NCBI GenBank assembly: GCA_949358305.1
Contig: OX442315.1
Coordinates: 8,458,427 to 8,522,426, forward strand
Direction: 5' to 3'
Length of the DNA stretch: 64,000 nucleotides
From: Strigamia acuminata
Taxonomy: Eukaryota > Arthropoda > Chilopoda > Geophilomorpha > Linotaeniidae
A program made the translations under genes and the position numbers. Under the pieces are notes generated by a model. It searched no databases. It saw only the letters and a list, made by a program, of their open reading frames with translations, and was not told the DNA's origin. Numbering within the stretch: position 1 is the first letter of the stretch; each line of letters starts with the position of its first letter. Positions 1,449 to 64,000 of the stretch are shown here, one piece after another.

Positions 1449-2469
1449 TGTTGTGACCCGACTGGACCGGGGTCAACGAAGAGTTTCTCTCGTGACCTCG
1501 TTTCGGGTGTAAGGGGAGCCGCAAGCGCGTCTCCCTTCCCTCAGTGCATTGACATCTAGTCAATGGACAGGCGTCTGCCCTGAGGGAGTGGGGATGGCTC
1601 GTCCACCCCACCATTGGGTGATTCTGGTCACCTGTCAACCCCGCTTTGTGCAAAGGAATGTGCCTTGCACTGAGCGGGCAGAACCAACACAACCATCAAA
1701 CAAGAAACACACGAGAAATCTACCGTCCTACCGATCAGGCCTAAGTCAAGCACTAGGAGTGACCAGGGACAAAGGATATATTCTTCGTGAGTACATTTGA
1801 TTCGTGTTAACCTCCGCAGAGTAACCTGCGTGATAAGATTACCGCGCTGTTTTAGCACACCCGCTAGAAACAGCAAACACCACTCCAGTTTAGCGAGTTG
1901 TGCAGACAAACGGTCGCACAAGCCTAAACTGCAGTAAAACCACGACGAGCGTTCCCGCCGCTGTGTGATCGCCGGGAGCCAGAAGAGTCCGCCGCTGTGT
2001 GATCGCCGGACACCTACAAAAAACCCTAAACCTAGACAACAGACCAGAAGTAAGACCTTTTAGGCATTCACTCGCGCCCGACCAGCGTGAGCCCGAAGGA
2101 CCAGCCAGAGACGAGCCGAGGACGCCATATTGCCACGCCGGCCCAAGACGACATCACGTTGCTACAACGAGGACGCCATCTTGGACGCGAACGAAACAAC
2201 AGACGACCTCGCCGGTTCCAGCCAGCTTTCATCATACCTTTACCTTTCCATTTCCCTTCACCCATTCCGATTTACCTTTTACCTACCTTTCATATATATA
2301 TATAAGATATATCTGTATATTGTCCCACAGAATAAATCTATATTATATTTTACCTTTTATATCTGTGTAATCATTTCTTTGGGTAAACCGCTTGAGACAA
2401 AGCGGTAGTGAGTTAGTCGAATTAAGTAATCAACCCACGAGTTAGCGACGGTTAGAGTTGAGCGCGACA
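1449..2469 (+). repeat. Element A 5' LTR
   Basis: The LTR begins TGTTGTGACCC and ends GCGCGACA. It is matched along its length by 18230-19250 with no difference noticed by eye. It carries a TATA-rich stretch at about 2291-2305 and AATAAA at 2331-2336, suggesting transcription start and poly(A) addition in the last 200 bp. A GCCATCTT (YY1/Pho-like) site lies at 2175-2182. Open frames inside it are not genes. Confidence 0.97.
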
Positions 2470-8478: not shown

Positions 8479-8490
8479 TGGTAGCAGAGG
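8479..8490 (+). promoter_or_regulatory. Copia primer binding site
   Basis: TGGTAGCAGAGG lies 2 nt after the LTR. It resembles the TGGTATCAGAGC site of Copia elements, which pairs with initiator tRNA-Met. Confidence 0.75.
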
Positions 8491-9375: not shown

Positions 9376-12300
9376 ATGCAAAAAGTCAGTGATCCGACCA
9401 GCGGCAGAGTTCCCGTACTCGCTGTAGGGAATTACGACTCGTGGCAGAGGAGCATGCGAATGCTCCTCAAAGCAGAAGGATTGTGGCACCACGTGACGGA
9501 AACCGAGGAAGTTGAATACCTAAAAACCGCATCGGAAAAGGAGAAAGTCAAATATCAGCGCAAGAAAGACAAGGCTCTCGGCCTCATTTACTGTTTTGTC
9601 TCCGAGGCAAAGAAGTCGGCCCTTGATAATTGCGATACACCTAAACAATCTTGGGATAAGTTGGCGCAGATCTACGCTCCCAGCTCCCGCGCGCGCCAAG
9701 CCGCGATGCGCTGGGATTTCCTCGCTCTCCGACTTGGCCCGAACGAGGAAATGGCTGATTTCATCGCCCGCGTCGATTACCACGCCAGCCAACTTAAGTC
9801 GGTGGGTGAACCAGTCTCAGATGTTCACCATTCGTATCAGTACTTACACCGCCTTCCGCCCGAGTATTCGCAAGCATCGTTTGCCATATACCATTGGCCA
9901 GATGACCAGTTCATACCGGATAAAGTGTCCGAACAGCTTCTCTCCGAGTATATGCGCCTCAAATCAATCCATACGAACAATTCTCAGTCAGCATCGGCGC
10001 ATACTTCCAACACTGGTCAATCTCGACGGAATCAATCCCGACCTCCGCGTGATATTTCGACGGTTCGATGTTTTAATTGTCAAGAACTCGGACATTACGC
10101 CAACAAGTGCCCTCATCAGAAAGGCGATGGTCAGAACCGCCAGGCACCCGCTGCGCAAGTCCAACGCTCCTCTCGCAGTAAGAGCCGTCGCAGTAACAAG
10201 AACGCGTCGAAGCCGGAGGATCCCAAGCCACGGGGCAGTTCCAGGCCACGACGAGATGCAAATTTCTTCGTCAATTGTCCCCAGATCATCGAGCGTCCTA
10301 TTGCACATTTTATGCAGTCAAATGAGTGGATCATTGACTGCGGGGCCACCGACCACATTTCTCATATTCGATCGTGGTTTTCGGACTTTGAACAAATTAC
10401 GCCATTCGACATCGAACTCGGACAGGGCAAGTCCAAAGTAACCGGACGTGGTAACGTGCGACTTCAGACCTCGATTGACAACTGTGACTGTTTTGTGACT
10501 CTACACAATGTCTTATTTGCACCGAACTTTGAGGCGAATCTTGTCTCCGTGAGCAAAATCGACAGAAACAAATTCCACATTGATATATATGACGGGGAGG
10601 TTAATGTCTATCAATCCGACATTCGCTCATCAGTTCTCCGGGCGAAGGAAAAGGCTGGATTATATTACGTGGATGGACTTTGTGTGACCCCCGCTATTGC
10701 GACAACGGTTTCGCCGACTCTTCAGCCTGCACCAACAACTCCAGTCAAGATGCTGGTCACTTCTGAGGTTGATTTCGAGCCAATTCCGAAACCGAAAAAG
10801 AAGTCAAAGACAAAAACTGAGCACATGACGGATTTTCGTATCGAGTTGCCATCTTTGGACGTCGTGAACGAAATTCCGACCCCAACTCCTACTAATCCGT
10901 TATCGAACCTAAGTCCTACCCAAGCTCAACTCCCTCCTTCCGTCCCATCCCATTCCGACGTCATTCAGTCAATCCCGACGTCATCCATCCCTAAAACGAG
11001 TTCTCCACCTAAAAAGGAGACGGTTGCTGCTGCGGCATCAAGAAAAGACGCAACTGGACTGTGGCATAGTCGTCTTGGCCACCTCCACACCAAGTCAATG
11101 CGTCTTCTGGCAACCAATGATCAGGTCTACGGGATGGAACCGGCTGAAGTGTCCAAGGAGTTGGCATGCAACGACTGTCGACTTGCAAAGTCAATCCGTA
11201 AATCACACAAGCCGGATTTAAACCCAATTTCAACCAAAGCACTAGACCTTCTCCACATGGATGTCTGGGGACCATCAGAAACCACATCCATTGGGGGAGC
11301 TCGTTTCGTATTCACGATAATTGACGACGCCACGCGATATTGTTGGATAACACCGATGGCACAAAAATCTCAAGTCTTCGGCATATTCAAGGATTTCGTC
11401 ACCCGTATCGAATGCGTTGCAAGTACTCGTGTGAAGGCTATCCGTTCTGACCGTGGTGGAGAGTTCATGTCGAATGAATTCCTCGACTACCTTCGAGAGA
11501 AGGGCATCGAAGGTCAGCGTACCAACCCTAATTCACCCGCTATGAATGGAACGGCCGAACGAATCAACCGGACAATGGCCGAAAACGTGAGAGCTGTGTT
11601 AAACGAGACCAAACTCCCGGATGCGTTGTGGGCCGAATTGGCTGTGACATTCGCCTACATTAAAAACCGCTCTCCACATTCTCGTTTAAACAATCAGGTT
11701 CCTTATATCCTGTGGCGACAGCGAGCCCTTTCATTGCGGCATCTACGACGAATAGGATCAAAATGTTGGGTGCATTTTACCGCACCGGGACGCAAGAAGC
11801 TCCAAATGCGTGCCTGGGAGGGCTATGTTGTCGGATACGCAGTCGGAACGAGAGGATATCGCATTTGGAACCCATTGGATGATAAAATTACCGAATCATG
11901 TCATGTCAGGATCGACGAAAGGATATCGTATCGCCGGTCTATTCGAAATGGCAACGGGAATCACCAATCTACGTTTGAATTCCCGGTTGAAAACGTTCAA
12001 AACTTCCCACAATCGACTGTATCGTTTGATGAAAACATCCAGTATCTTGACTGGCCAAAGGGATCGGACTCAGAGGATGAACACTCGTCGTCAGACGATG
12101 AGCCTGAGATGCCTCCGCTGGAAGAAAGTTCGAGCTCAGCCGCATCCGCTCAATTTATGACACCTGAGCGACAACTTCTTGAGGCGTGTGCTTTGAGATT
12201 GCCAAGCTCCGATAGTAATCTGGGTGATGACACGGATCGTGACGTTGATGATATAGACGAAGTTTCCCTTGTGCCTATGTCTACCTATACTTCTCCTCAT

Positions 12301-14286
12301 GTGTCACCTCAAACTTCACCGCAAACCTCGCCCCCGTTATCCCAACCGGGCTCTCCGAGCAGATTTGTGACTACGCGAAGAACAATGGGTACTTCTGTTC
12401 TTCAACACACAATTCCAGTTTTTGGTGCAGGACCCATGTCTCCAGCTCCACTTCATGGTATCGAGGTATTACCAACCACTGCCAGACAGACAGCTTTTAT
12501 GTGGAGATATATCGGAGGAGATTCGCCGTGTGCTGGTTGGAAACGTGAAGAGCATCTCAGAAAGGATCAGAGACCCGGGAAAATTGACACCGACGTTTAT
12601 TATTTCCCGGAACCGGATGTGCGACTGCGTTCCCGTAAAGACGTCGAAAAATATTGTCAGTTTAATCACATCGAGTACGATCCGGAGCTCTTCTTCTTTG
12701 GCAACATTGAATACACTTTGCCAACGATTCCTGGCCGACATGTGGCTCATCTCTGCCGAACCGAACCCGCATCTTTCGCCGAAATTCCGAAATTCGACGA
12801 TGCTCCGAAATGGAGAGAAGCAATCGCAGAGGAACTCGGAACTTTTGAAGAGCGAGAGGTTTATGTTGAAGTACCGAGGCCGCCAGACACGACGATCCTC
12901 GGGTGCAAGTGGATCTTCAAGTTGAAATCTGACGCCGCTGGCAAGATTACTCGTTACCGCGCCCGCCTTGTTGCTCAAGGCTTCCGACAAACTCTCGGCG
13001 TCGACTACGATGAGGTTTTCAGCCCCGTAGTGAACTTTGTGCTCATTCGGATGTTCTTTTGTTTGCTCGTCGTTCTCCGAGGTTGGAAAGACGCGCACCT
13101 CGACGTGAAGTGCGCTTACCTTTACGGTGAGCTCGAGCATAAGGTGTACATGCGCATCCCGGCTGGGGCGACCTGTACAAATCCGAACAACGTCTGGCTA
13201 CTCATAAAATCCCTTTACGGTCTGCACCAGTCGGGAAGACAGTGGTTTGAAAAGCTCGACGAAACGCTTCGATCTCTCGGATTCCGCAAACTTCCTGGCT
13301 GCAATTGCGTGTACATGTTTGGATCTTCGGCGCTAATGTTAGTCTACGTGGACGATATCGTTCTATTCTACGCAACTGACTCCGTTCTCGACCGTCTCAT
13401 CACTCTGATTAGCACCAAGTTTCAGATTGTTAATCTGGGACCCATCACGAAACTACTCGGGGTTGAGTTCATTCGTGACGCTGGCAAAACATTCATCAGC
13501 CAGCGAACGTACATCGCAAAAATCATAAAGAAGTTCGGCACCGTTATTAATAACCTCGTCAAGGTTCCAGTCACTCCGGGGACCATGCTCACAAAAGGAC
13601 CGACAGAAAACCTAATCGATTTCCCATATCGATCCCTTATTGGATCTCTGTTATTTTTGGCCTCTCGAACTCGCCCCGACATCCTGTACTCGGTGATATT
13701 CCTTTCACAATTCAACACCTGTTATACGCAAGCTCACATCAAGGCTTTGTTTCAAGTGCTGCAGTACGTGTCTAACACAGCGGACTACTGCATTGAACTA
13801 TCGGGATGTTCGACTGGACTTTTGTGGGCATACACCGACGCGTCGTGGGCATCGGACACCGCTACTTCACTCAGCTTCGGAGGATACATTTGTTATATCG
13901 GGAACACGCCAATTGGGTGGTCTTGCCGCAAGCAAACCACAGTCGCCTGTTCGACTATGGAGGCCGAATTTCTTGCCCTAGTCGACACGGTCAAGGAGCT
14001 TTATTGGCTGCATCATGTATACTCCGAATGTTCGATACTCGACCGCGTTCCACGACCCGTCATCTACTCCGACGCACTTGCCGCTATCCAATTCACCGCG
14101 AATGACGTCGAGAACAGTAAGACGAAGCACATTCGCGTTAAGTTCCATTGGCTGCGGGAGTGGTATTCGGCGGGACGTTTCGAGCTCAGAAAAGTGCCCG
14201 GCGATCTTAACGTCGCCGATATATTTACAAAATGGCTCGGCTCGGAACGACTTCGATCACTCATCTCGCGAATCTTCCGACTCTAA
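9376..14286 (+). CDS. Copia Gag-Pol polyprotein
   Basis: This is a 1636-residue single polyprotein. The ATG at 9376 is the first in frame and gives a normal Copia Gag start (YDSWQRSMRMLLKAEG). The order is Gag, CCHC knuckle (C232-F-N-C ... H ... C), protease (WIIDCGATDH near residue 320), GAG-pre-integrase (WHSRLGHLH near 565), integrase (HMDVWGP, SDRGGEF and the downstream Glu), Ser/Pro-rich linker, Copia reverse transcriptase (YVDDIV near 1324) and RNase H (YTDASW near 1486, TMEAEF). PR-IN-RT-RH order is diagnostic of Copia. There are no frameshifts or stops. One oddity is that the protease motif reads D-C-G where D-S-G or D-T-G is usual. Gag and Pol share one frame, unlike element A. Confidence 0.96.
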   Translation: MQKVSDPTSGRVPVLAVGNYDSWQRSMRMLLKAEGLWHHVTETEEVEYLKTASEKEKVKYQRKKDKALGLIYCFVSEAKKSALDNCDTPKQSWDKLAQIYAPSSRARQAAMRWDFLALRLGPNEEMADFIARVDYHASQLKSVGEPVSDVHHSYQYLHRLPPEYSQASFAIYHWPDDQFIPDKVSEQLLSEYMRLKSIHTNNSQSASAHTSNTGQSRRNQSRPPRDISTVRCFNCQELGHYANKCPHQKGDGQNRQAPAAQVQRSSRSKSRRSNKNASKPEDPKPRGSSRPRRDANFFVNCPQIIERPIAHFMQSNEWIIDCGATDHISHIRSWFSDFEQITPFDIELGQGKSKVTGRGNVRLQTSIDNCDCFVTLHNVLFAPNFEANLVSVSKIDRNKFHIDIYDGEVNVYQSDIRSSVLRAKEKAGLYYVDGLCVTPAIATTVSPTLQPAPTTPVKMLVTSEVDFEPIPKPKKKSKTKTEHMTDFRIELPSLDVVNEIPTPTPTNPLSNLSPTQAQLPPSVPSHSDVIQSIPTSSIPKTSSPPKKETVAAAASRKDATGLWHSRLGHLHTKSMRLLATNDQVYGMEPAEVSKELACNDCRLAKSIRKSHKPDLNPISTKALDLLHMDVWGPSETTSIGGARFVFTIIDDATRYCWITPMAQKSQVFGIFKDFVTRIECVASTRVKAIRSDRGGEFMSNEFLDYLREKGIEGQRTNPNSPAMNGTAERINRTMAENVRAVLNETKLPDALWAELAVTFAYIKNRSPHSRLNNQVPYILWRQRALSLRHLRRIGSKCWVHFTAPGRKKLQMRAWEGYVVGYAVGTRGYRIWNPLDDKITESCHVRIDERISYRRSIRNGNGNHQSTFEFPVENVQNFPQSTVSFDENIQYLDWPKGSDSEDEHSSSDDEPEMPPLEESSSSAASAQFMTPERQLLEACALRLPSSDSNLGDDTDRDVDDIDEVSLVPMSTYTSPHVSPQTSPQTSPPLSQPGSPSRFVTTRRTMGTSVLQHTIPVFGAGPMSPAPLHGIEVLPTTARQTAFMWRYIGGDSPCAGWKREEHLRKDQRPGKIDTDVYYFPEPDVRLRSRKDVEKYCQFNHIEYDPELFFFGNIEYTLPTIPGRHVAHLCRTEPASFAEIPKFDDAPKWREAIAEELGTFEEREVYVEVPRPPDTTILGCKWIFKLKSDAAGKITRYRARLVAQGFRQTLGVDYDEVFSPVVNFVLIRMFFCLLVVLRGWKDAHLDVKCAYLYGELEHKVYMRIPAGATCTNPNNVWLLIKSLYGLHQSGRQWFEKLDETLRSLGFRKLPGCNCVYMFGSSALMLVYVDDIVLFYATDSVLDRLITLISTKFQIVNLGPITKLLGVEFIRDAGKTFISQRTYIAKIIKKFGTVINNLVKVPVTPGTMLTKGPTENLIDFPYRSLIGSLLFLASRTRPDILYSVIFLSQFNTCYTQAHIKALFQVLQYVSNTADYCIELSGCSTGLLWAYTDASWASDTATSLSFGGYICYIGNTPIGWSCRKQTTVACSTMEAEFLALVDTVKELYWLHHVYSECSILDRVPRPVIYSDALAAIQFTANDVENSKTKHIRVKFHWLREWYSAGRFELRKVPGDLNVADIFTKWLGSERLRSLISRIFRL

Positions 14287-14476
14287 AATTATCGACATTC
14301 CTAATTTATTTGCCCGACATCGAGGATCATCGAGCTCCAGTGGGAATATTCGGGCTTCCGTAGAGTTCTTCAATGACAGTACCCGGCTCGGTGATTCGAA
14401 CTTTATTGTTTATATTTTCTCGTAACACACTGTAATTCCAGTACCCGTTCTGTATTTCCCCGAACCTATTTACATC

Positions 14477-14486
14477 GAAGGGGGGA
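14477..14486 (+). promoter_or_regulatory. Copia polypurine tract
   Basis: GAAGGGGGGA lies 2 nt before the 3' LTR and is the expected plus-strand primer. Confidence 0.85.
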
Positions 14487-14488
14487 TT

Positions 14489-15034
14489 TGTTGGTCTACG
14501 GACCGTGTTTGTAGTCGATGTAAGACAGATTCGGCTTGTATTATCATTTTACCGGTGTATTTCTCAATTATTGCTTATTTACCGATCTTTTAAGTTGTTT
14601 ATCATATTTTTGGTCATTTAGTCATTGTTTATGTATTTTAGCATGAGGCACCATGCATTTGTTAGTTTTGGAAGTTACTTTGACTATTTTCCTAATTTGC
14701 AATGTTGTATTGCGACACAAGGTGTCGCTACTCACTCTCTCTCGAATCCAAGATGGCGCTGCACACGGAGTTGCTTGCCCATCCTTTTTCCCAACCTGAT
14801 TTGGACCACTATGTAAGATATTTTGTTTATATTAAATCATTTTATTATTTGTATATGCTATTTGCATCATTCCACGGCATATAAGTGCTTGTGCACGGCC
14901 GTATCTTGCTCGAAACGTTTTCGGCGCGAGTATTCTGCGCGCGAGAATTTGCGAGCACTCTGCGAGTCGGGTTCCGACTCTGTTTTCGATTTTTCGCTCG
15001 TAATTCCGAGCTAATTTCCTCCTCCTCTGCTACA
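14489..15034 (+). repeat. Copia 3' LTR
   Basis: A second copy of 7931-8476, followed by the target duplication TTCTG. Confidence 0.97.
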
Positions 15035-15039
15035 TTCTG

Positions 15040-18000
15040 GACGCGGTTATACCAACCAGCTGCTGACAATTACCCAAATGCAAAGAAGGAATTTAAGCTA
15101 GAGCGGAGAATAAATGACCCGCTTCTAAGCGCCTTCCACGCTCATGTCGGCAAGCAGATGCAAAGCAATCCCCCGACAAGGGAGGAAATAATTGTGCAAC
15201 AAAAATTAGACAAAAAATGTCAGGACAGAGCTAGATTCGTACTGACAGGAAAATATCCGCCCAATCTGACCAGAAGGCAGAAGCGTCGTTATGCGCACGA
15301 ATCCATAGATTACCTATTGGATGACGGCCTTTTAGTGAAACATCACCCAAATCACCAAGATGACTTGAGTGAATCAGACACCGCAGTAAAGGTAGTAATA
15401 CCTGCTTCCTTAATCGGTCGCGTGCTGTGGTTGTTACACGGGCACCCGCTTGCGAGCCATGCGGGAGTAAGCAGAACACTCTATCGTGCTACACAGCTTT
15501 TTCACTGGACAGGGATGAAAAAAGATATTGCTCTTTTTGTCCACCAATGTCAGCGATGTCAAGCGTGCAAGCCGAGGAGAAAATCACCATTCGAAACTAT
15601 TTTCTTAGGGCCTTACGCGCCTTTTGATTGTTTAAGCGTCGATGTGATGGGCCCAAAACCCGTTACGGGAAATAAAAATGCGTACATTATCGTAATAATG
15701 GACGTGGCGACTCGTTGGCCCGAGTTGTACGCCGTCGCTAGACCTTCAGCAGAGAAAATCGTTGAATGTATCTACGACGTGGCGTTACGTTACGGATTTC
15801 CACGTAAAATAATATCCGATAACGGACCCCAATTTATCTCGAAAATTTGGGGTAAGTTTTGTGAGAAATTCAGGATTGTGGCGTCACATACTTCGACCTA
15901 CAATCCTAGAACAAATCCCGTTGAGCGACTCAACAGGGACATTAAATATGCACTAAGCATATTCACTGACATCCACAATAGGTGGGATGAATACTTGAGG
16001 GAGATCGCGTTCAGCATACGAACAACAGTCTCGAGGACGAGAGATTTTTCTCCGGCCTACCTCAACTTCGCCCGAGAGCTACGAGTGCCTTGGGACCCAC
16101 GAGTGGCAGAGTCAGTAAATGTGGTGGACCCAGAGAAACCACATGAGTATGTGTATAAATTGGAGCAAACAATTTCAAACACATACAAACATATGATGGC
16201 GCACATTTTTAACATGCGCGACCGCATTTTACAAGATAAAAGCGGTGGGAAATTCGTGAATTTCGAGATCAATGATTTGGTGTGGAAAGATGCACACACC
16301 CTCTCAAATGCAGCGAGAGGGATCACCGCCAGCTTGGCCGACAAGAGAGATGGTCCGTATGTAATCATCGGCAAGCATGGCGGTAACGCGTATAAATTAC
16401 GCAAGCTCGAGGACAACACCGAGCAAAAGTCGATCCAGGTACGAGAGTTAACTCCGTACATTCCGGAATTCCCGCAAGAAATGTGGGCCAAGGGCCAAGT
16501 CAAGTCTAAAACTGACGGCCAAATCGTCGATATGTTCGCTGGCGAGTCGGAACAAGCACCGCCAAGTGACAACGAGGAGTATTTCGACGCCCCTTCACCT
16601 CCGGTAAACGAGATAGTTGAATCCGTTCCGGATCCAATTTTGGTCGGGGGGGAAACAGGAGAAACTCCTGAAACAAACACAAAAAACACGGATAAAAAAG
16701 AAAACAATAATGAGGAGGTACAGACACAAAAAACAACAAAAAATATCGTACCTGCCTCGATCCGTAACCTGCGACCGCCGTCGTTGTTGAATTCGAGCGA
16801 TCCGCCGAATTTACACACCGACCGCTCAGTCCCTCTCCCCGTTGGACAGAGCATTATGCAGGAATGTCGAGCCAATTTGACCGACATTTACAGGCCGAGC
16901 CGACCCCGACCCGGTTCCTCGGCCCTGTTCTTCGAGAGGCGAGACGAAGAAGCGCGACTCGCGAGAGAAGCCGCCAACCCGACTATCTCCGAGCTCTCAG
17001 CGTTTCGCTTCGTGATGGAAGACCCAAGAGTCTCCGCACCCGCCTTGCGAGGTGTGGATCAGGCCCAGCGATATTTCATCGAATGGGCAACGGCGATGAT
17101 GAGTAAGCTCTCGCGTGCCTTCACTGCGGATTCAGAGCGATCGAATCCAGTGAATCGTCGCAGCCTACAGCTATCATTGACCAAGGTCATGATGCAGCTG
17201 CTAACCCCAGCACTCTTCGGAGAAGGGCGTCAGGCGATGGCCGCATGGTCTGTCGTGGACAGAGAGGGTGTACAGGTTCCCCGTGCACTCCTCGCAGAGT
17301 GGAGCTCCATTCTGCCCGACCCTGTGTTGACTCGGTACGAGCTAACCAGGGATGTGGTAAACCCCGAATTTGAGGGGTACAAGTTGCGAAGCACGGCGTT
17401 TCGTTACACCTCCGCCACCTGGACGGCGGCGCCTACCCAACAACTACGCGCCATGACCATCCAGACGGAAGAATCGGCAGAGGATGTGGAGATGATGATC
17501 TCGCCGACGAGCGGAGTTCCGATTCCGCCACCGATGCCTGCGGAGATATCCCCGCAAGGACCCGCCCTGTTCGAAGTGGCGGGTAGACCAAAGCGCTTGC
17601 TGTGCCGAACACCACCCGTCAAGTCCGTCGAGCGAACGAAGCCGACCCCGCCCGTGACTCCACCGGCCCAAGCGGCGACAACGACACAAGCCGTGATTCC
17701 CGCGGCCACCCAGAAGCCGCAGCCGGCACCGCCTCCACCAGATTATTACGGGCGAATCATCGAAGAATTTCCCCATCTTTCGATGACGACGGCGACCAGG
17801 AGGTTTATCCTCGCGCAGCGGGACAAAGGCAAATCGGTCTTCATCTGGCTTCACAACCAGATCCGGAAGACTAAAGACCTCATCTTCCACCAGAGGTTGC
17901 TGAGAGCCCACCGTGCGCCAGTGACGCCAGCGGAAGCCAATGCCATCCGGCATACGAACACCGGCTTCTCCGCATACATCCCGAGCGTTTGGTTACACGA

Positions 18001-18193
18001 GAGGACGCGTGCCCCGCATGAGCCAGTTGACGGCCATGCATTATGCTTCATTACGGAGCATGAGGACCCCCGAGATCGGTCCTCGGCGCTAGTAGGCGAT
18101 CTACCCGCGCCACCCGGCACTCAACCGCCCGTCCCTGGAGTGAGTTACGCCCAGGTGACGGACTCAGTGTCGGGTCCCTCAGGAAAGAAGTGA
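15040..18193 (+). CDS. pol: Element A Pol, second part: integrase plus unrecognised C-terminal extension
   Basis: This continues the pol frame from 7930 once the Copia and one TTCTG copy are set aside. It has the integrase zinc-binding HHCC (about 15437-15572), catalytic core with Asp (DVMGP, about 15640), Asp (SDNGPQF, about 15820) and Glu (NPVERLNRD, about 15920), and a C-terminal domain ending near YIPEFPQEMW. About 550 further residues follow: an acidic linker, a helical block (17161-17350: KVMMQLLTPALF then EWSSILPDPVLTR), a Pro/Ala-rich stretch and a last block near 17740-18060. That extension is not a known Gypsy domain to me. The block recurs in element B at 63738-63930 without gaps, so it is conserved coding sequence, not read-through. 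The ORF ends 36 nt before the 3' LTR. Confidence 0.9.
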
Positions 18194-18229: not shown

Positions 18230-19250
18230 TGTTGTGACCCGACTGGACCGGGGTCAACGAAGAGTTTCTCTCGTGACCTCGTTTCGGGTGTAAGGGGAGC
18301 CGCAAGCGCGTCTCCCTTCCCTCAGTGCATTGACATCTAGTCAATGGACAGGCGTCTGCCCTGAGGGAGTGGGGATGGCTCGTCCACCCCACCATTGGGT
18401 GATTCTGGTCACCTGTCAACCCCGCTTTGTGCAAAGGAATGTGCCTTGCACTGAGCGGGCAGAACCAACACAACCATCAAACAAGAAACACACGAGAAAT
18501 CTACCGTCCTACCGATCAGGCCTAAGTCAAGCACTAGGAGTGACCAGGGACAAAGGATATATTCTTCGTGAGTACATTTGATTCGTGTTAACCTCCGCAG
18601 AGTAACCTGCGTGATAAGATTACCGCGCTGTTTTAGCACACCCGCTAGAAACAGCAAACACCACTCCAGTTTAGCGAGTTGTGCAGACAAACGGTCGCAC
18701 AAGCCTAAACTGCAGTAAAACCACGACGAGCGTTCCCGCCGCTGTGTGATCGCCGGGAGCCAGAAGAGTCCGCCGCTGTGTGATCGCCGGACACCTACAA
18801 AAAACCCTAAACCTAGACAACAGACCAGAAGTAAGACCTTTTAGGCATTCACTCGCGCCCGACCAGCGTGAGCCCGAAGGACCAGCCAGAGACGAGCCGA
18901 GGACGCCATATTGCCACGCCGGCCCAAGACGACATCACGTTGCTACAACGAGGACGCCATCTTGGACGCGAACGAAACAACAGACGACCTCGCCGGTTCC
19001 AGCCAGCTTTCATCATACCTTTACCTTTCCATTTCCCTTCACCCATTCCGATTTACCTTTTACCTACCTTTCATATATATATATAAGATATATCTGTATA
19101 TTGTCCCACAGAATAAATCTATATTATATTTTACCTTTTATATCTGTGTAATCATTTCTTTGGGTAAACCGCTTGAGACAAAGCGGTAGTGAGTTAGTCG
19201 AATTAAGTAATCAACCCACGAGTTAGCGACGGTTAGAGTTGAGCGCGACA
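18230..19250 (+). repeat. Element A 3' LTR
   Basis: A 1021-bp copy of 1449-2469, followed by the AGCT target duplication. Confidence 0.97.
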
Positions 19251-50418: not shown

Positions 50419-51507
50419 GCAGTCAGCAGCTTCAATTTCTAAACTTGTTTAAATTCTACAGAGATTATCAAACCATAGTAATTATAACATAATTATAAAA
50501 GATTTAAACTAATCTTTTTACTTTTTTTAACAGAACACCGCAACAAAATGCGAGACAAGACGTTTTCTCCGTGTCAAATAAAGAAGGGCCAATAAAAAAT
50601 TGGGTTTGACGTAACATGGCGATTCCCGGCCGGGCACGCAGCAATCATTCACGAACAAACAATGCAAACCTACAAAACCGAAATCAACAACTGGAAGATA
50701 TAGATATTACAAATCTATTGCAGCCGTCATTATGTTATTTCTAATGTCTGCACTTGCAATCTACTTCAGATTTTTTAGGTGCCAAGTTTTGGTGTGTAAT
50801 GTGTTGGCATTGTTAACTTACAATACATATTAAATCATTATTTTGCCAAATTCATTTAATTAATGAATGAGTGAGTTGTCTTTCTTACATCACTGTATCA
50901 AAACTATTAAAGTTAGCAGCATTATTATTATTATTTTTTTTACTTTTTTTTTACATCAATAATGTATAGATTTTTTTAAATTGATCACAAAAATGTGAAA
51001 TATTTTTTTTAAGCAAGCTGAAACCATGATAGATGAATTAAAAATAACAACTAAATGATAGAAAGTGAGGGATTTTTTTCCTACAAATTTCATTTTTGAC
51101 CACATTCACCTGCCGGGGCCACCTTTAATAACCACTTATTATTATACTTTTCGCGATTTTCCATTTGTTTTCATATTTCTTCACGATTTTTTTACTTATT
51201 TAGTTATCAATCGCAAGCCTCCTTCCGCAACTTTTTCCACAACCCCTCAATCAGTGGCGACCTCAGCTGCATGGCGAAGTAAACTGGACCACACAATTAC
51301 GTGTGTTTATCCATTAAAAAAATAAAATATATATTTTATATTTGTCAGTTACCGTCATCGTAATCCTAATTGCGATTCAGTTATTCAAAAGCTGCTTACG
51401 GTAACGTAAGTGCCACTCTGGTTTGCTTCACCCAAATTGAGTTAAAGTAAGACAGGGAAGCGAACATGGCAGAAGAAATGTAGATGCAGAAGAGATACTG
51501 TAAGTCA
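50368..51507. repeat. Segmental duplication, right copy
   Basis: A shortened copy of 45032-46454. Element B begins 3 nt after its end. Confidence 0.85.
50617..50790 (+). pseudogene. Coiled-coil/TM gene, copy c, internally deleted
   Basis: The N-terminus matches copy a almost exactly (MAIPGRARSNHSRTNNANLQ, then NRNQQLE). A deletion then removes most of the coiled coil and changes frame into YYKSIAAVIMLFLMSALAIY, the membrane anchor type of copy a'. It looks like a fusion of the start of copy a and the end of copy a'. As written, the frame from the ATG stops soon after the junction. Confidence 0.5.
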
Positions 51508-51510
51508 CTT

Positions 51511-52942
51511 TGCGGTGGCCCGGATGCCACCGAGAGGTTTTATTTTATTTGATCGCTTTGAAAATAAGTCAATTTCAAGCGAAAGGAAATAAATAATTCC
51601 GAATTTTATTTATTTAGTGCATTTAGCAAAAGTTTGCTTTATTTTATTATTATTTTGCATTTTTTTCTCGAAATAAGTTAATTCGAGTTTGAGATCACCA
51701 TTTTTGTATGTAAATCGAATAAAATATATGCATTTGAATTATAAACCAGTTGAATTTATTTTGAGTCTTGAAAGTTGCCAAAATTGGCAGTTTTATTATT
51801 ATTTTGTGCCACAAAGTGACAGCAGCATAATTGGAGTAATTAGTAGCTATTTTTAGAACTCTGCCTGTCTGCAGAAGACAGCTGAGTGGGAGGTTGCCAG
51901 GGCAACCCACCCACAAGCTAAGCAATACAGGAAGTGTTTCCTGCTAATAAGGAAATTTAGCAGAAACACTTCAGTCTTATTTTGAAAACCTTGTTGAAAC
52001 CACCACGTGAAATTGCATCCAGAAAACCTGAAAACTCTGCTGTGATTTTGTGGCTAATTTGCCAAGATTTTTAAGACTCATCATTTTCTTGTAACAGTGA
52101 ACCCACTGTTACGAGATATTTTCTTGTGATAACCACATTGTTATCACGAGAGCCCGCTTCTTGCAACAATCAATTTGTTGTTGTGAGACATTTGTTTCTT
52201 GTCGCTTAATTAGCGACGAGATATTTATTTGACCGTTTAGTCAGCCCGCCGTCAAGATTGTCGTGTGTGCCGGCGTGCCGCACGAGATCCGAGTCGAGGG
52301 TGTTGGCAAATTGGCCAGTCTGTAACGCAACCGAGACGTTTTCGCCACCGTCACGGTCGTCTGTCGCGCCGTCGTGCCGAGCAGAGACCCGAGTCGTGTG
52401 GGTAATCGTTTATCGAGGTGATTTAGTCGTGGGAGTGCGGACGTTTGTGAGACGTCGCGTTTGAAGAAAACGTCGGGAAAACGTTCCGTCGGCGTACGAG
52501 AACGTTCCACCAACGAGACGGAGTCGAGAAGGAGGAAATCCAGCACCCAGCCGTCGCAGGATTTGGAGAGGAACGAAACAGCGTCGAGGACGGAAAACCA
52601 GCGCCGTCGCCGCCATCTTCTTTATTTTATTCCTATTTTCCTAATTTCGATAAGTATTTTGTTTAGTATTTTGGTTATGTTAACGGTAAAAAGTAATGTT
52701 AAGAAAGCTGTGTAATTTCGTATATTATTTGTAATTTTGTGATTTATTCAAGTCTAGGAATAAATCTCTATTGGGAGTTTTAAAAGAGAAAAACATTTGT
52801 ATTCTTTGAAATTAGTTTGTTAGTTAAATTCACTTAGGCCAATTAGACTAAATATAAATTTTAGTGATAGTGAGTTTTGTAAGTCCTATAAACGGCAATC
52901 CATAGTGAGTCAGTTTTAGTAATAAGATTCCGGTTCACTACA
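51511..52942 (+). repeat. Element B 5' LTR
   Basis: Starts TGCGGTGGCC and ends GGTTCACTACA, two nt before the primer site, with TG..CA ends. The left boundary is placed where similarity to the duplicated flank stops; the right boundary is by analogy with element A. AATAAA lies at 52759-52764 and GCCATCTT (YY1/Pho-like) at 52612-52619. The first 710 bp is a series of short perfect hairpins. The second LTR is not in the window, so the exact length is unconfirmed. Confidence 0.8.
52091..52217 (+). repeat. Four framed hairpins in tandem in the element B LTR
   Basis: Stems at 52091-52112 (GTAACAGTG/CACTGTTAC), 52126-52147 (GTGATAAC/GTTATCAC), 52164-52180 (CAACAA/TTGTTG) and 52201-52217 (GTCGCT/AGCGAC). 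Each is preceded by TTCTT and followed by a GAGA-like motif, at 35-38 nt spacing. The stems differ in sequence, but pairing is kept. Confidence 0.85.
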
Positions 52943-59126: not shown

Positions 59127-61232
59127 TGTTACATGCCAACATCACAAAATGCAATGGCAAACGCTTTCATCATCAAAGTGACAGAGCAGTTAAACTGCAC
59201 TCCACCCACTCGTGAGGAATTTATAGCTGAACAAAAGGCAGATAAACAGTGTCAAGTTATCCGATTCTATCTGGAAACACAGCAGTTCCCACCACACGTA
59301 ACCACTCGCCTTGAAAGAAGAAATTTCAAAGTATTGGCGACCAGACACATCCTCGAGGAAGATTTGCTCATGCGATATCAACCAACGATTTCTGATGAGC
59401 TGGGCGAGGATAGTAGTGCGTTGAAAGTCGTGGTACCAAAGTCGCTAAGATTTCGAGTACTTTGGTTGATGCACGGCCACCCATTGGCCAGTCATAGCGG
59501 TATTGCAAGAACACTTTATCGGATGCGCTGCGTCTATGTTTGGGACGGCATGAAAAGGGACACTGCAAAGTTCATCAAGCACTGTGTCAGATGCCAGGCG
59601 TGCAAGCCACGACCAAAAACTAAAGTTGAGCCGGCTGAAATTGGGCCTTATGCACCGTTTGAGTGCTTGAGTATTGATCTAACAGGCCCAAAGCCAAGGA
59701 CAATCGAAGGAAACAACTATATTCTGGTTATTTTGGATGTTGCGACTCACTGGCCAAAATTGTACCCATTGGAGGACCCCACCGCCCAAATCATCTCGGA
59801 TTGTGTGTACGACACGTCCATGGACTGGGGATTTCCTCTAAAAATAATATCCAACAATGGGCCGCAATTCAAAGCTCGAATCTATAAGGAGTTTTGCAAA
59901 CGTTTCAAAATTATCCCAAAATTCACTTCCCCGTATCATCCACAAGCCAATCCAGTCGAGAGGCTCAACAGGGACATAAAGTATGTCATTGCAATTTTCA
60001 CAGACCTGCACCGCCGCTGGGACGAATATTTAAGAGAAATAGCGTTCAGCATCAGGTCCACTGAGTCAAGGGGTCGAGGATACTCCCCTGCCTATCTCAA
60101 CTGCGGCAGAGAACTTCGTATTCCTTGGGATCCGAGAGTTCTCGATGGAATTCTTCGGATTGACCCAAAACGGCCCCATGAGTATGTCCAAAGATTACAA
60201 AGAGTGATAAGTGACACGTACCACCACATGATGGCGCATATCGTAGACTTAAGAGAGAGAGTGCGCAATCATCAAGATGATGCCAAATTTGAGAACTTCA
60301 AAATTAATGATCTTGTTTGGAGAGAAAACCACGCGCTCTCAAAAGCCTCAGCTGGTATCTCTGCGAGTATTGCGGACAAGCGTACTGGCCCCTATGTTAT
60401 TACCCAAATACATCAGGGTGGAGCTGCCAGATTGCGCCGGCTAAAAGACAATCGAATTTTTAACTCAATTCACAAATCCGAATTGTCACCCTACTTCCCT
60501 GAATTTAACCAAGAAATTTGGTTAAAAGGCCAAACTAAAAGTAACCCCAATGCTGAGGTGGTAAACACCTTACTTGATGACATTCCAGCAAGAGGGGAGA
60601 ATTCAGAAATAGTGGAAGAGGCAGAAAATGTGCCAAGTACGGAAGTCGCAGAAAATGTGCAAACGTCAACTAATGCACAAGAAACACAAAAACAGTCAGA
60701 ATTGCAAAATTCGCAAAATTTTGAAGTCAATTTTGATTTGGGTGGAGTCGTCGAAACGCAAGAAATTGCAAATGCACCAAGTGCAGACGACATGCAAAAT
60801 CAAGAACGTGCAGAAAACGTTCACGACAATGACAATGCGCAAGGCGCAGAAAGTGTGGAATCTGTGCACAGAAATGTGCAAGATGTCGCACGAGACGTAG
60901 AAAATGCACCAACTAGTGCACAAAGTGCCGAAAATTTGCCAAATGCAGAAAATGTGCAAGGTGCAAAAGCTGCAAATGAGTTTACAGAAAAATGTGTTGC
61001 AGAAAGTTCAGACGACACGGATGCAGACATTCCACTAATCACCCCAGAAAATGATGTTTTTGGAAATGAAAAGCAAGTTGCTTCATTTTCCAAAAAGAGG
61101 GGAAAGAGAGTGGAAAAGAAAGTTGAAATCAAAAAGAAATATCAACAATTAAATTCTCGTGAGAAGAAAAAGGCTTTAAAACAATACCCACTTCGCAACA
61201 GAGCGAAGATAAAGCCTCCGGATTATCTCTAA
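59127..61232 (+). CDS. pol: Element B Pol, second part: integrase
   Basis: In the same frame as the preceding part, after one TAG; the first ATG is at 59133. It has the PPTREEFIAEQK start shared with element A, integrase HHCC (HGHPLASHSG to CVRCQACK), first Asp (SIDLTGP) and Glu (NPVERLNRD). The second catalytic Asp reads Asn (SNNGPQF, against SDNGPQF in A), which should abolish integration activity. After the integrase C-terminal region come about 230 residues rich in Ala-Glu-Asn-Val repeats and a basic end. The protein then stops, unlike element A, where the extension continues in frame. Confidence 0.9.
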   Translation, partial: CYMPTSQNAMANAFIIKVTEQLNCTPPTREEFIAEQKADKQCQVIRFYLETQQFPPHVTTRLERRNFKVLATRHILEEDLLMRYQPTISDELGEDSSALKVVVPKSLRFRVLWLMHGHPLASHSGIARTLYRMRCVYVWDGMKRDTAKFIKHCVRCQACKPRPKTKVEPAEIGPYAPFECLSIDLTGPKPRTIEGNNYILVILDVATHWPKLYPLEDPTAQIISDCVYDTSMDWGFPLKIISNNGPQFKARIYKEFCKRFKIIPKFTSPYHPQANPVERLNRDIKYVIAIFTDLHRRWDEYLREIAFSIRSTESRGRGYSPAYLNCGRELRIPWDPRVLDGILRIDPKRPHEYVQRLQRVISDTYHHMMAHIVDLRERVRNHQDDAKFENFKINDLVWRENHALSKASAGISASIADKRTGPYVITQIHQGGAARLRRLKDNRIFNSIHKSELSPYFPEFNQEIWLKGQTKSNPNAEVVNTLLDDIPARGENSEIVEEAENVPSTEVAENVQTSTNAQETQKQSELQNSQNFEVNFDLGGVVETQEIANAPSADDMQNQERAENVHDNDNAQGAESVESVHRNVQDVARDVENAPTSAQSAENLPNAENVQGAKAANEFTEKCVAESSDDTDADIPLITPENDVFGNEKQVASFSKKRGKRVEKKVEIKKKYQQLNSREKKKALKQYPLRNRAKIKPPDYL

Positions 61233-62236
61233 AAATAGAACTAGGACGTCGCTCGGAAGTCCGGAAATGGACGACGTCATTGCTGCGTTGTGATTGGTCG
61301 CCGAAGGGATCAGCTGCAGTTCGAGACACTTAGACATAACAACAAGTGTGAACTAGTTTAACCTCTCGGAAAACAAACAAATTTCGATAAGTGATCACTG
61401 GCAGACAACAGCAACAGCGATCTGAGGTTTGGGAAAAGCGTTTACGACGACCAACAACAACGAAAAGCGGAGATTAATCAGGAAAGATGTCGCGAGAACG
61501 GCAAGCAGACGGTTCGGATGACGAACAACAGAAAGAAAAGGAAATTTTAGACAAGGTAGTCAAAAGTTGAAAAAATATTCAATTAGAAATACGACAAATA
61601 AGTCGAATGAAAACGTTTTCTTCACATAAATGTGTATGTCAATGTGATCAAAGATAGAAATGAGAAAGTTTATCAAAGAACTAAAAAAGCTCACTCTCAG
61701 AAATGAATGGTAAAAGGGAAAAAAGTGTCCGAATCTTTACTATTCATAAGTTAAAAGGCAAAACGATTCATAAAAAAGAATAATAAGGCATAAATTTGAT
61801 ACGTTTAATTGAAAAATATAACAAAAAATTAAATGCGGGTACGGGAATCGAAGTGAAAATTGCTATAAATAACATGAGAACGGACGCCATCTTGCGTTCA
61901 ATTACGGAACCAAAATGGCGAAGTTTGAAACAAAACTTAAACACATTGACACACACATGGAAGAAACGATAAGTGTGTGACAAAGATAAGGAATTAATGA
62001 TAAAAGAAAAGATTAGAAAGATCTTCGGATCACAAAGACAAAATTGTCTAAAATAAATTTGTCAAAAAAGATAAACTCCGCATGCCATGCAGAGGGGACG
62101 CCATCTAGCGGCCCGAAATCAAATTAGAAAACAATATTTTATCGAAAATGCTAAAATAAATGTCACACACATAAGGAATTGTTATTATATTGAAAAGATT
62201 TATTGAATAACATTCTTTTGATAGACTGAACAAGCC
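61233..62236 (+). other. Noncoding gap in element B with promoter-like and intron-like signals
   Basis: 61250-61330 has GACGACGTCA (CRE-like) and GTGATTGGTC (inverted CCAAT). An ATG at 61487 opens 23 codons (MSRERQADGSDDEQQKEKEI to LDK), then AAG|GTAGTC at 61555/61556. From 61556 to 62224 the sequence is AT-rich without long frames and ends TTCTTTTGATAG. Splicing 61555 to 62225 keeps the frame into the ORF at 62237. This is an inference from signals only. Confidence 0.4.
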
Positions 62237-62899
62237 ATGGCGTCCTGGGAGGCGATTCCGGAAGGTGCAATCATTAGACTAAACATCTTCCGTGGAAGGA
62301 TCCCGGACAAGATTCAAATAGTGTTCAAGCGACTAGGATATGACGCTTGGATAACTCGGAAGTGGCTCACCAACCAAATCAAAAAATATTGGGGGACCAC
62401 GAAGCGAATCTGCCATGGAGACACATTGGAAGCGCACGCCTTACGTCAACTCATACCCGAACTGGAAGACCCGCATGGACCCATTTTCAATGAGTTGCTG
62501 GCGGAATTATATCCAATGGTTTACGAAGAGGCTAAGGATTATGAAGTGTATTGCGACCCGGCAACAAATCGGCAAAAGTTTGCTAAGCGAGTTATGGCAA
62601 GGATCAAGGCGGAAGCTGGCCCAGTAGCAGCAGAATTTATAGTCAAACAACAAGCTTTTTTAGAAGAGCAGGAAAAGCTAGGAGGCCCGCCTGTGACGTC
62701 ACCACCCGAACATTTCGCAAAAACGCAGACTCAGATGCATCAATTACATCTAACTGGAGCCGTGGGAAATCGAGTTGCAAACACCAACCGAAATCGACCG
62801 CGCAGACGATATGCCCCAACTAAAGCGATGAAGGATTGGGAACGTCTCGAAGATCAGCGCTCAAGAAGAAGTCCGACATTCTCCCATCGAGTGGCATGA
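62237..62899 (+). CDS. Element B ORF3, N-terminal part, function unknown
   Basis: 220 residues from the ATG at 62237 (good context, GCCATGG). A folded-looking region (IPDKIQIVFKRLGYDAWITR and onward, Trp- and Leu-containing, mostly helical by composition) is followed by a basic end (NRNRPRRRYAPTKAMKDWE). No domain is recognised; there is no signal peptide or membrane segment, so it is not an obvious envelope protein. It ends in TGA at 62897, while another frame (open from 62832) takes over with coding-like composition. A single-nucleotide indel, a programmed shift or splicing could join them. A 23-codon upstream exon (61487-61555) may belong to it. Confidence 0.6.
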   Translation: MASWEAIPEGAIIRLNIFRGRIPDKIQIVFKRLGYDAWITRKWLTNQIKKYWGTTKRICHGDTLEAHALRQLIPELEDPHGPIFNELLAELYPMVYEEAKDYEVYCDPATNRQKFAKRVMARIKAEAGPVAAEFIVKQQAFLEEQEKLGGPPVTSPPEHFAKTQTQMHQLHLTGAVGNRVANTNRNRPRRRYAPTKAMKDWERLEDQRSRRSPTFSHRVA

Positions 62900-64000
62900 A
62901 GAAGCACGCGAAGTCACGCCACCAAAGAGAGCAAAAAAATGCAGGAGGTCGCACAAAAAGTCGAAAGCTCAACGTGAAATTACTCTGCCGATGTCAAAAA
63001 AGGACGCACTTTTAATCAAGATTAAGGGCACCTGCGACCCCGACGAGCCCATCATCCCGTTGGTTGAGTGGGACGACTCGTGGCAAGAGGATTTCGTGAT
63101 TGTCGATGAGGCAGAAGAATCAGAGTATTCGTCGGATGCAGGGAAGGAAGCAGTCGCTACAGGCGGAGAAGAATCGTCGGTGTTCCAGAGTCCAGCACCA
63201 CACAAGGATGTACCTGACACTCCATCACCAAGACCATCCTCACCCGAGGAAACGATGACCATTCAGGTACCAAGCTTGACTCAAGAGGCATCAGTAGAGC
63301 TGGAAGCCCCACCTCCACCTCCCCAATTGCAAGAACTGATGACGCTGAAAGTCAAACCACCTAAAGCGAAAAGGAAGCCAAAAATGTTACGTCCGAAAAA
63401 TTCGATTGAACGTGATCGTTTGAAGGAAAAGAAGACGCCAACTGTAGACCCGCACACGTTGCCAATGGAGGGACCCATTCCACTGATGGACCACTCGATT
63501 CCGGTCCCAGAACTCGCATTGTGCCCAGGGGAACAACCAATGAGACCCCAAGAAGATTACGACAAGGATTTCTACAGATTATGGCGCGGTTATTTGAAAT
63601 ACCCGTTGAACACCCAGAAACTGGTCCTCACAAATTTGGATGGATATCAGGCCGCCCAGCTCAATGAAGCGGTGAACGAGATGAAGCGTTTGGCCAGGGA
63701 ATTTGTGCAAGTACCACTGAGGGAGCAAACTGAACGCTGGCTGCAAAAATTCCAGAAGAAAACGGTGAAAGTGCAGCAACGCCTACTGTTTCCGGGGGTA
63801 TTCTACACCGATGAGGCGTCGTTCATAGGCGATACTGTGTTGTATACAACGCCATTAGGAATTCCACCTGAAATGCTTACCAACTGGAAGTCAATCCTCT
63901 ACGATGCGGTGTTGCTTCGGAGCAATTTGGTGTATGCAAATCTGGCAAATGGAGAAACATGCAATCAGAGCGCGATTCGCCTGAGACAGGAATGGACGAT
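62832..64000 (+). CDS. Element B ORF3, C-terminal part with the domain shared with element A Pol (partial)
   Basis: Open for 389 codons to the window edge; the first ATG is at 62991 (MSKKDALLIKIKGTCDPDEP). An acidic and Pro-rich region (63090-63360) and basic patches (KPPKAKRKPKM) precede a helical block at about 63550-63980. Ungapped against element A (17161-17350), KVQQRLLFPGVF pairs with KVMMQLLTPALF. The following 42 residues share 12 identities, including W-x-S-I-L-x-D-x-V-L-x-R. That is conserved protein sequence in a different genomic arrangement. Function is unknown. The overlap with the preceding ORF is 68 nt in the +1 frame. Confidence 0.7.

Follow-up and report, generated by a model that had tools for sequence, protein, structure and literature searches.

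A third gene with an intron behind pol in a Ty3/Gypsy retrotransposon lineage of the centipede Strigamia acuminata

Introduction

The window analysed here, a stretch of 64,000 nucleotides from Strigamia acuminata, contains two Ty3/Gypsy elements, Gypsy A and Gypsy B, whose coding capacity appears to continue beyond the integrase. A preliminary description of the locus had noticed a short block of residues common to both, carried as an in-frame extension of Pol in A and in a separate downstream frame in B, and had taken it for an extra domain that may belong to a new accessory protein. This raises the question of what the block is a part of, and what a gene in this position would do for the elements. 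All features given below lie on the forward strand.

Results

Both elements carry reverse transcriptase, RNase H and integrase in this order between LTRs, the order that defines Ty3/Gypsy elements (the 3′ LTR of B was read only partly, in locus L001), and their integrases are 52% identical. The LTRs of Gypsy A, at 1449..2469 and 18230..19250, are identical over 1021 bp, with the TSD AGCT, and the 5′ LTR is followed by the PBS TGGGGGCC, assigned as tRNA-Pro-like by its likeness to the Cer1 PBS. A nested Copia element sits between the RNase H and integrase of A and ends at 15034; the integrase part of the fused frame covers 15035..16776. In Gypsy B, the 5′ LTR (51474..52942, approximate ends) precedes the PBS TTGGGGGCCTGTCC, and the integrase frame (59127..61232) ends in PPDYL and a stop. 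The one telomeric contig end that was read is of the TTAGG type, which is the arthropod type of telomere repeat.

The common block is exactly as first described: 12 residues, 6 of them identical, run without a gap into 42 more, of which 12 are identical. It does lie in the post-integrase region, and its start is slightly to the right of the one originally given, the block being at 17183..17344 in A and 63768..63929 in B. When the B block was shuffled 20,000 times, no shuffle scored as high as the real sequence (z 12.6), and in a longer comparison, of A residues 561-1102 with the 389 residues of B, 3 of 3000 shuffles scored as high or higher (z 5.4). Because the earlier reader had picked the best stretch, we also ran an independent profile test. 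Specifically, a profile of eight other copies of the protein from the same genome, built without A, matched the post-integrase region of A at E 6.9e-19 (205 targets) and L038, a sister copy of A, at E 2e-35, and found no match in 200 shuffles, a reversed control, the A integrase or the Pol of the third Gypsy in the window, confirming that A and B are homologous here. The frame of A indeed extends past the integrase to 18193, and the frame of B at 62832-64000 is open. A second colinear region common to both, the C-domain (about 17741..18073 in A, approximate ends), was invisible to the earlier reader because its partner in B lies beyond position 64000. The 54-residue block is the middle of an M-domain (16808..17434 in A, approximate ends), and the common region is larger than had been seen.

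At the level of sequence, the lineage of Gypsy A and Gypsy B carries a third gene behind pol, which we call ORF3. Rather than the single extra domain first supposed, ORF3 encodes a complete protein of about 840-1130 aa, and its presence throughout the lineage agrees with the suggestion of an accessory protein. From the N- to the C-terminus it comprises an N-domain, an arginine/serine-rich basic linker, the M-domain and the C-domain; the three domains follow in the same order along an alignment of nine ORF3 proteins, and the linker is present in 9/9. The absence of a transmembrane segment, previously held to count against an envelope protein, applies to all nine, none of which has a membrane-type stretch (highest hydropathy 1.55 over 19 residues). 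Leucine-rich matches resembling an export signal occur in only four of the nine, and a C-x(2-4)-C pair in none.

The claim that the block is no known Gypsy domain held in every database searched. In a search against Pfam, which had been proposed, the nine proteins matched six families, each weakly and through a single member (best E 0.011), none of them credible; envelope, fusogen or suppressor-like families were not matched. PDB sequences gave a best E of 0.42, which is not credible either. In a large protein database nothing was significant for A region 560-1102, for the ORF3 of L002 or for the nine-member profile (about 8000 candidates scored each), and the profile gave nothing at E 0.1; note that the protein of window A itself was not listed for the A query, and coverage of the host is apparently poor. 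No relative was found in the viral contigs scanned. Structure prediction, which had also been proposed, gave no usable comparison, since the AlphaFold models of the window sequences (pLDDT 39.9 and 43.8) were useless. An origin of the N-domain from Gag was rejected, as it gave only weak alignments to the Gags of A and B, mostly in the Arg/Ser-rich linker and none convincing.

Substitution patterns show ORF3 to be under strong purifying selection. The dN/dS of the whole protein was 0.075-0.26 in six of seven unsaturated pairs, and that of the N- and M-domains 0.01-0.065 in 8 of 10 computable values. High outliers for the N-domain were 0.18 and 0.93, and the L038/L040 pair gave 0.55, a value resting on only 8 changes.

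Gypsy B shows how the gene is built. A coding exon 1 of 23 codons (61487..61555), also seen in L002, is followed by a phase-0 GT-AG intron of 669 nt (61556..62224), whose splicing is shown by relatives, and by exon 2 (62225..64000), which contains the N-domain (62237..62773, approximate ends) and the M-domain block and runs past the window. The frame at 62832-64000 belongs to exon 2, of which it forms the 3′ part within the window, and is not an independent ORF, the exon 2 frame being broken in this copy; among close B copies the 816-aa exon 2 frame is open in 12/14. Of the 11 loci read upstream of ORF3, 10 allowed a phase-0 GT-AG intron to be placed between two coding exons. The eleventh, L016, lacks the 642-nt intron present in L015, and in L074, from another family, the 420-nt intron of L051 is missing with exact ends. 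These two precise losses show that the intron is excised in vivo. In all seven loci where the integrase stop was read, exon 1 comes after it (B, L016, L047, L048, L051, L049 and L038), and the transcript could hold further exons. A search with a junction pattern, which bears only on B-type copies, gave zero matches.

The intron is also conserved between relatives. In three pairs its identity was 0.95, 0.89 and 0.64, compared with 0.77, 0.76 and 0.31 at four-fold degenerate sites, in a stricter alignment (the shuffle control belongs to the cheap-gap alignment only). The initial 555 bases of exon 2 gave similar identities in the same pairs (0.93, 0.90 and 0.61); therefore, conservation of the intron does not exceed that of the coding sequence as a whole. 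Intron identities from the cheap-gap alignment were discarded, shuffled controls being nearly as high. The intron of B aligned with that of L015 at a score of 504 (shuffles 183, sd 13) and with that of L038 at 90 (shuffles 98), so that the L038 intron is no more B-like than shuffled sequence.

The two modes of carriage described for A and B do not survive this comparison. Relative to L038, Gypsy A has a 2.8-kb internal deletion joining the integrase to the middle of ORF3 at 16766..16776, where 11 positions, including a shared AACCTGC, align with both sides. L038 and L040 are sisters of A, with protein identity rounding to 100% in the shared region, and in both of them ORF3 is separate from Pol and includes an N-domain. 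The fusion occurs in 17 of 20 fetched A loci, all of them deletion copies, and 15 of these 17 have open frames of 1838 aa with an identity in the query region that rounds to 100%. Judged from these loci, the Pol fusion in A is not ancestral; window A belongs to a group of 2.8-kb deletion copies, and the fusion is confined to them rather than being a stable C-terminal extension of Pol. The intron, the front of ORF3 and the hairpin region described below were lost together in the window A copies.

All families examined other than A's type have a conserved hairpin in the spacer that separates the integrase stop from exon 1. In B it directly follows the stop (61243..61280) and consists of an outer stem, a bulge with CTCGGAA and an inner stem. 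A genome pattern that fixes the bulge and the 3′ arm, whose constancy there is by construction, gave 91 matches and none in the reversed control. For 85/91, an ORF3 on the same strand follows at a distance of 1.0-6.2 kb, and the other six have no listed ORF3 downstream. The exact pattern is missing at 21 of 106 ORF3 places, and the two of these that were inspected, L020 and L071, both have a variant hairpin. Four of 13 pairs are changed on both sides, and the inner stem covaries (GTCC/GGAC, ATCC/GGAT, GGC/GCC). Paired cells and covariation score were as high in 0/500 shuffles. The count of double-change pairs was only modestly above shuffles (14/500 for A4, 29/500 for A5), and further pair types were not above them (464 and 450 of 500). 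The intron-less L016 keeps both the hairpin and an open ORF3; the A-type L038 has no such hairpin, its spacer holding three tandem hairpins of another sequence. We regard the hairpin as a candidate structured element of the intron-containing RNA, one that may act as RNA rather than as DNA. Hairpin-driven read-through of the integrase stop was rejected: behind the TAA there is a second stop, TAG, in the same frame in B, L016, L047, L048 and L051.

Discussion

An intron in a retroelement is expected to be lost whenever spliced RNA is reverse-transcribed. Because the ORF3 intron persists in 10/11 loci and is conserved between relatives, yet can be spliced (two exact losses), a dedicated way of keeping and moving unspliced RNA is suggested; the replicating RNA presumably must keep the intron, and a way of handling RNA that the splicing machinery recognises would therefore be needed. 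The reading we prefer, to which we give slightly less than an even chance, is that ORF3 works in the nucleus as a regulator of unspliced element RNA, by export or by protection from splicing, like CERV of Cer1 or Rev, with the hairpin as a candidate cis-site. ORF3 protein would be made from spliced mRNA, the basic linker would bring it into the nucleus, and it would there act on unspliced genomic RNA, exporting it or shielding it from splicing through the hairpin and/or intron elements. The window A copies may make intron-free RNA without need for such help, or may be supplied with ORF3 in trans. A fuller version is more tentative, and we hold it possible but doubtful: in a genome of arthropod type, an envelope-less Ty3/Gypsy lineage, independently of retroviruses, would have a Rev/RRE-like or CERV-like pair, the spliced RS-rich nuclear ORF3 and the hairpin, to keep and export intron-containing genomic RNA, and deletion of the intron, hairpin region and ORF3 front would free copies from that need.

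The closest parallel is CERV of the C. elegans element Cer1, which, in the part of PMC10309623 considered here, is encoded behind pol, made from spliced mRNA and needed for gRNA export. Both proteins belong to Ty3/Gypsy elements, are large and lie behind pol, with a spliced mRNA (suggested for ORF3 by the two intron-less copies); both have several structured domains with flexible linkers and no envelope resemblance; and the element RNA retains splice sites in both, the PBS of Cer1 and of Gypsy A starting alike with TGGGGGCC (PMC10309623). However, exons 1-3 of CERV are in the gag frame, whereas coding exon 1 of ORF3 lies behind pol and its N-domain has no convincing gag match, and the C4 cysteine loop in the CERV M domain has no counterpart among the nine ORF3 proteins (PMC10309623). 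CERV has a Rossmann-like G domain, against which ORF3 offers only predicted models of pLDDT about 40; the likeness is by the description of CERV in that source, not by sequence (PMC10309623). Rev of HIV, together with its response element, and the transport element of Mason-Pfizer monkey virus, as described there, would be similar in pairing, as suggested here, a structured RNA in intron-containing RNA with a basic protein of spliced mRNA (PMC10309623). ORF3 differs in having three conserved blocks in its roughly 840-1130 aa, and the hairpin differs in where it lies and how it is structured.

The main rival, which we consider rather unlikely, is that ORF3 has a transcript of its own and serves as a nuclear activator of the LTR or of its own promoter, the block behind pol being an internal promoter and the intron carrying downstream promoter motifs. 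Foamy virus Tas is an activator acting via an internal promoter; for the ORF3 spacer, promoter activity is suggested by its motifs. Conservation is strong directly after the integrase stop and gives way to a divergent A-rich stretch up to exon 1. GACGTC, in CRE-like pairs, is found in 8/8 spacers reaching that far, and GTGATTGG (61290..61297 in B), which we take to be an inverted CCAAT-box-like motif, was seen by eye in 7/9 spacers read; CRE-like GACGTC and ETS-like CCGGAAGT are likewise names that we assume. The window holds 7 copies of CGCCATCTNG, where 0.30 would be expected; five of them lie inside LTRs or next to an LTR remnant and two in the B intron (61885 and 62099). CGCCATCT is present in the introns of 8/10 loci, and by eye a conserved 3′ splice site is not seen ahead of exon 1. 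However, promoter sites do not require the inner-stem covariation, and GACGTCA is absent from the 5′ LTRs of A and B.

It is unlikely that ORF3 is a component of the virion or integration complex, for example a capsid or integrase partner, with the window A fusion as a working form. The many near-identical fused loci with open frames and the M-domain, helical in the weak AlphaFold model, would suit such a role, but the fusion is a deletion product, an intron and an RS-rich linker are unexpected in a virion part, and no Pfam or PDB similarity is credible. We rate as quite improbable that ORF3 protects unspliced RNA from nonsense-mediated decay or acts against host silencing (piRNA/siRNA): the linker evolves faster than the constrained domains next to it, which is compatible with conflict, but nothing specific favours this role and no suppressor-like family was matched in Pfam. 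An envelope or cell-transfer protein is highly improbable; ORF3 does sit in the env position, and env-F of insect errantiviruses is, in the part of the source considered, likewise a third gene expressed from spliced mRNA, but env-F is a membrane glycoprotein (PMC12992720) and ORF3 has neither a membrane-type stretch nor an envelope or fusogen match in Pfam. That A and B are alike by chance, or share an ordinary Pol tail (chromodomain, GPY/F extension), has a negligible probability, the raw pairwise score being modest (34 bits) but chance being refuted by the shuffles, the profile and the colinear domains.

Other accessory regions in Gypsy elements compare less closely. In the parts of the respective sources considered, sORF1 and sORF2 of MDG1 are accessory ORFs under selection, sORF1 being nuclear, but unlike ORF3 they lie upstream of gag and have about 110 and 70 aa (PMC11952523); Gypsy_Ds1 of the ostracod Darwinula stevensoni is, like window A, an arthropod Gypsy with a post-integrase extension, of 250 aa, unexplained and reported to resemble a spike coiled coil, the comparison being by description only (PMC7998251). 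The case of A advises caution, as an apparent Pol fusion in one copy can be a deletion derivative.

Returning to ORF3 as a regulator of unspliced RNA, the literature surveyed, as far as its accounts extend, names no protein of this kind outside retroviruses besides CERV of Cer1. If the reading is true, ORF3 would be a second case, not detectably related to CERV and accompanied by a candidate RNA element, and would bear on the frequency with which such systems arise and on their mode of action.

Homology of the post-integrase block

We compared the sequences that follow integrase in the two Ty3/Gypsy elements Gypsy A and Gypsy B. The 54-residue similarity seen in the preliminary description was recovered as described (A 17183-17344, B 63768-63929; 6/12 and then 12/42 identities), and none of 20,000 shuffles attained its score. 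BLASTP of the two window frames gave 34 bits (E 1e-5), and the alignment to A lengthened to ~340 residues (ORF3 468-805; E about 2e-9) when the continuation of B was taken from another copy, L002. Here, ORF3 denotes the third gene behind pol, and the block is the middle of its M-domain. When eight ORF3 proteins from outside A were made into a profile, it matched the A post-integrase region (E 6.9e-19) and the A-type copy L038 (E 2e-35), with zero matches in 200 shuffles, the reversed sequence, the A integrase and the Pol of a third Gypsy. That third element (26541-31379, minus strand), which ends in a weak Tf2-1-like SH3 match, gave no ORF3 match in tblastn with three ORF3 queries at E 0.01 and is a useful control lineage. 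Pfam, PDB sequences and a protein database that seems poor in this kind of host contained no credible relative of ORF3, in agreement with the earlier view of the block as an unrecognised domain.

Structure of the ORF3 gene and protein

In Gypsy B (from ~51474 to beyond the window end), the integrase frame ends at 61232 and is followed by ORF3 exon 1 (23 codons, 61487-61555), then by a GT-AG intron of 669 nt (61556-62224), with exon 2 starting at 62225. What had been described as a separate ORF of B belongs to exon 2, which is spread over two frames in the window copy and in L014; an open 816-aa exon 2 frame is present in 12 of the 14 close B copies (L002-L013). The exact 3' splice-site string was found in 13 of these 14, and the donor string also in 11 of those 13. 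The region upstream of ORF3 was read in 11 loci; a phase-0 intron, 167-1235 nt long, was placed in 10 (L002, L015, L020, L038, L047-L052; exon 2 of L052 ends prematurely), and L016 was without one. Note that individual donors are inferred, because exon 1 starts were chosen by eye and a script selected the first in-frame AG/GT at least 30 bases past the start codon. Relative to L015, the related copy L016 is missing precisely the 642-nt intron, and L074 (C9:10130650), found via a junction search, is missing precisely the 420 nt that form the intron in L051; the 3' splice site of this second family in its intron-bearing form matches 11 genome places. As judged from genomic copies, these two precise losses show that the ORF3 intron is truly spliced.

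Intron identity exceeded identity at four-fold degenerate sites in three pairs (400/419 v 324/421, 733/825 v 261/342 and 409/640 v 56/183), and recombination between copies could contribute to this likeness. The motif CGCCATCT lies within the introns of 8/10 loci, always on the sense strand, and is absent from L038 and L049; the likeness of the L038 intron to that of B was not above shuffles.

Nine exon 2 proteins (816-1113 aa; 839-1131 aa with exon 1) were aligned over an N-domain of ~190 residues, a variable basic RS-rich linker, the M-domain and a C-domain, and another version of the alignment adds two truncated rows. The most divergent protein, L038, is 21% identical to L002, and that of L020 continues for roughly 90 residues of unrelated sequence past the point where the shared C-domain stops. 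Each protein has 9-28 RS/SR dipeptides, KR-type basic clusters occur in 9/9, and a C-x(2-4)-C pair in none of the nine. Whole-protein dN/dS was 0.075-0.26 in six of seven unsaturated pairs (L048/L051 0.18, L050/L052 0.13, L019/L020 0.26, L015/L016 0.08, L002/L013 0.09, L002/L007 0.08), L038/L040 gave 0.55 from 8 changes only, and L002/L016 was saturated. Peak hydropathy over 19 residues was 1.55; ORF3 is not an envelope of the env-F type, and for the block an envelope protein had been argued against at the outset.

The Pol-ORF3 fusion of Gypsy A

The two LTRs of Gypsy A (1449-2469 and 18230-19250) are the same throughout their 1021 bp, the TSD is AGCT, and a Copia (7931-15034; TSD TTCTG) with identical 546-bp LTRs is nested between the RNase H and integrase of A; since both LTR pairs are identical, both insertions look recent. 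The A post-integrase region occurs at 89 places in the 237.5-Mb genome (window, C3:8458427-8522426), 20 of which were retrieved. The integrase/ORF3 junction of A was found in 17/20, the window copy included; L038 and L040 have the N-domain and a separate 929-aa frame in its place, and L039 has neither arrangement. An 1838-aa frame exists at 17 of the 89 places, 15 of them retrieved and fused and 2 not retrieved. Identity of L038 and L040 to A in the shared region rounds to 100% (L038, 99.8%), and relative to L038 window A lacks ~2.8 kb from the integrase end to mid-ORF3, with 11 positions at the junction (16766-16776) aligning to both sides. With this stretch went the spacer between pol and ORF3 together with exon 1, the intron and the N-domain. 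Because this stretch is present in the near-identical L038, the in-frame fusion, which had been taken as A's own way of carrying the domain, is on sequence comparison a deletion derivative that has since multiplied, and ORF3 is not a Pol domain.

Elsewhere in the window, minus-strand pieces at 43940-44626 are 87-93% complementary to Gypsy A LTR sequence, and tblastn with A proteins gave no match nearby. Palindromes of the CTTCGTTATAACGAA type occur in scattered MITE-like repeats (family D8; 1268, 22626, 25036, 26111, 33186 and 34615), which are 68-92% identical to a reference copy. (CCTAA)n stands at the start of contig C1, one of six contig ends looked at; it is the TTAGG telomere repeat that arthropods usually have.

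A hairpin behind the integrase stop

The block behind the integrase stop folds to 13 pairs (RNAalifold, eight loci), with both-sided changes in 4. Compared with 500 shuffles, cells paired (90.3% v 84.6%) and covariation score (0.250 v 0.152) were attained by none and double-change pairs (4 v 2.0) by 14, and further pair types (6 v 6.8; 464/500) showed no excess. A larger set of 18 distinct rows, aligned using the model and hence leaning toward it, gave 87.1% v 82.6% and 0.181 v 0.129 (0/500 each), 29/500 for double-change pairs and 450/500 for further pair types; on visual inspection this alignment shifts the inner stem by one base in L049, L067 and L071, a bias against the structure. The outer stem and bulge pattern had 91 exact genome matches, and the reversed pattern zero. 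Comparison of listed coordinates placed 85/91 matches 1.0-6.2 kb upstream of a same-strand ORF3 match, and 85 of 106 ORF3 places (116 rows minus the last 10, second pieces of places already counted) are so preceded. L071, of the 759-aa-frame type and outside the pattern, has a variant hairpin. The conserved hairpin is absent from L038; the integrase-ORF3 spacer of L038 and L053 contains three tandem hairpins, ACCCGTAGC...GCACGGG, where other families have a single one, and this stretch of L038 has a folding z of -2.9.

Possible function of ORF3

By analogy, we infer a mechanism as a whole in which the intron, though spliceable, would be kept in the replicating RNA in most rounds, the spliced mRNA would give the basic RS-rich protein, and the conserved structured element would sit in unspliced RNA. 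ORF3 and this element would then be the parts needed by an export or splicing-control system like that of HIV Rev or of CERV in C. elegans Cer1. The window A copies fit this idea, since joint loss of intron, spacer and N-domain would end the need for such a system. A documented parallel is CERV, which PMC10309623 describes as a post-pol, nuclear protein made from spliced mRNA and needed for gRNA export; the gag-derived exons and C4 loop of CERV were not seen in ORF3. The primer-binding site TGGGGGCCTGTCC of both elements (A 2472-2484, B 52945-52957) resembles TGGGGGCCG, reported for Cer1 in the same source.

Alternatively, ORF3 may be driven by its own promoter in the spacer and act as an activator. 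The spacer is promoter-like, with paired GACGTC, CCGGAAGT-like sites and GTGATTGG, and by eye no conserved splice acceptor lies upstream of exon 1. Furthermore, CGCCATCTNG, which resembles a YY1/Pho or CTCF site, was counted 7 times in the window where 0.30 were expected: in the Gypsy A LTRs (2174, 18955), the Copia LTRs (8191, 14749; minus strand), beside the A-like LTR remnant (43906) and twice in the B ORF3 intron (61885, 62099). Five of the seven are in LTRs or adjoin the remnant, and the LTR sites are not independent, as each LTR pair is counted twice. Export or splicing control and the promoter/activator role may both be true together.

Among the PubMed Central papers covered, no such gene was recognised; the nearest arthropod report (PMC7998251) is a 250-aa extension past integrase in an ostracod Gypsy, which may be unrelated to ORF3. 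The shared block, suspected from the outset to be a new accessory protein of this Gypsy lineage, is part of such a gene, and we file ORF3 as a new accessory gene in a known element class, one whose mode of action may resemble that of CERV or Rev.
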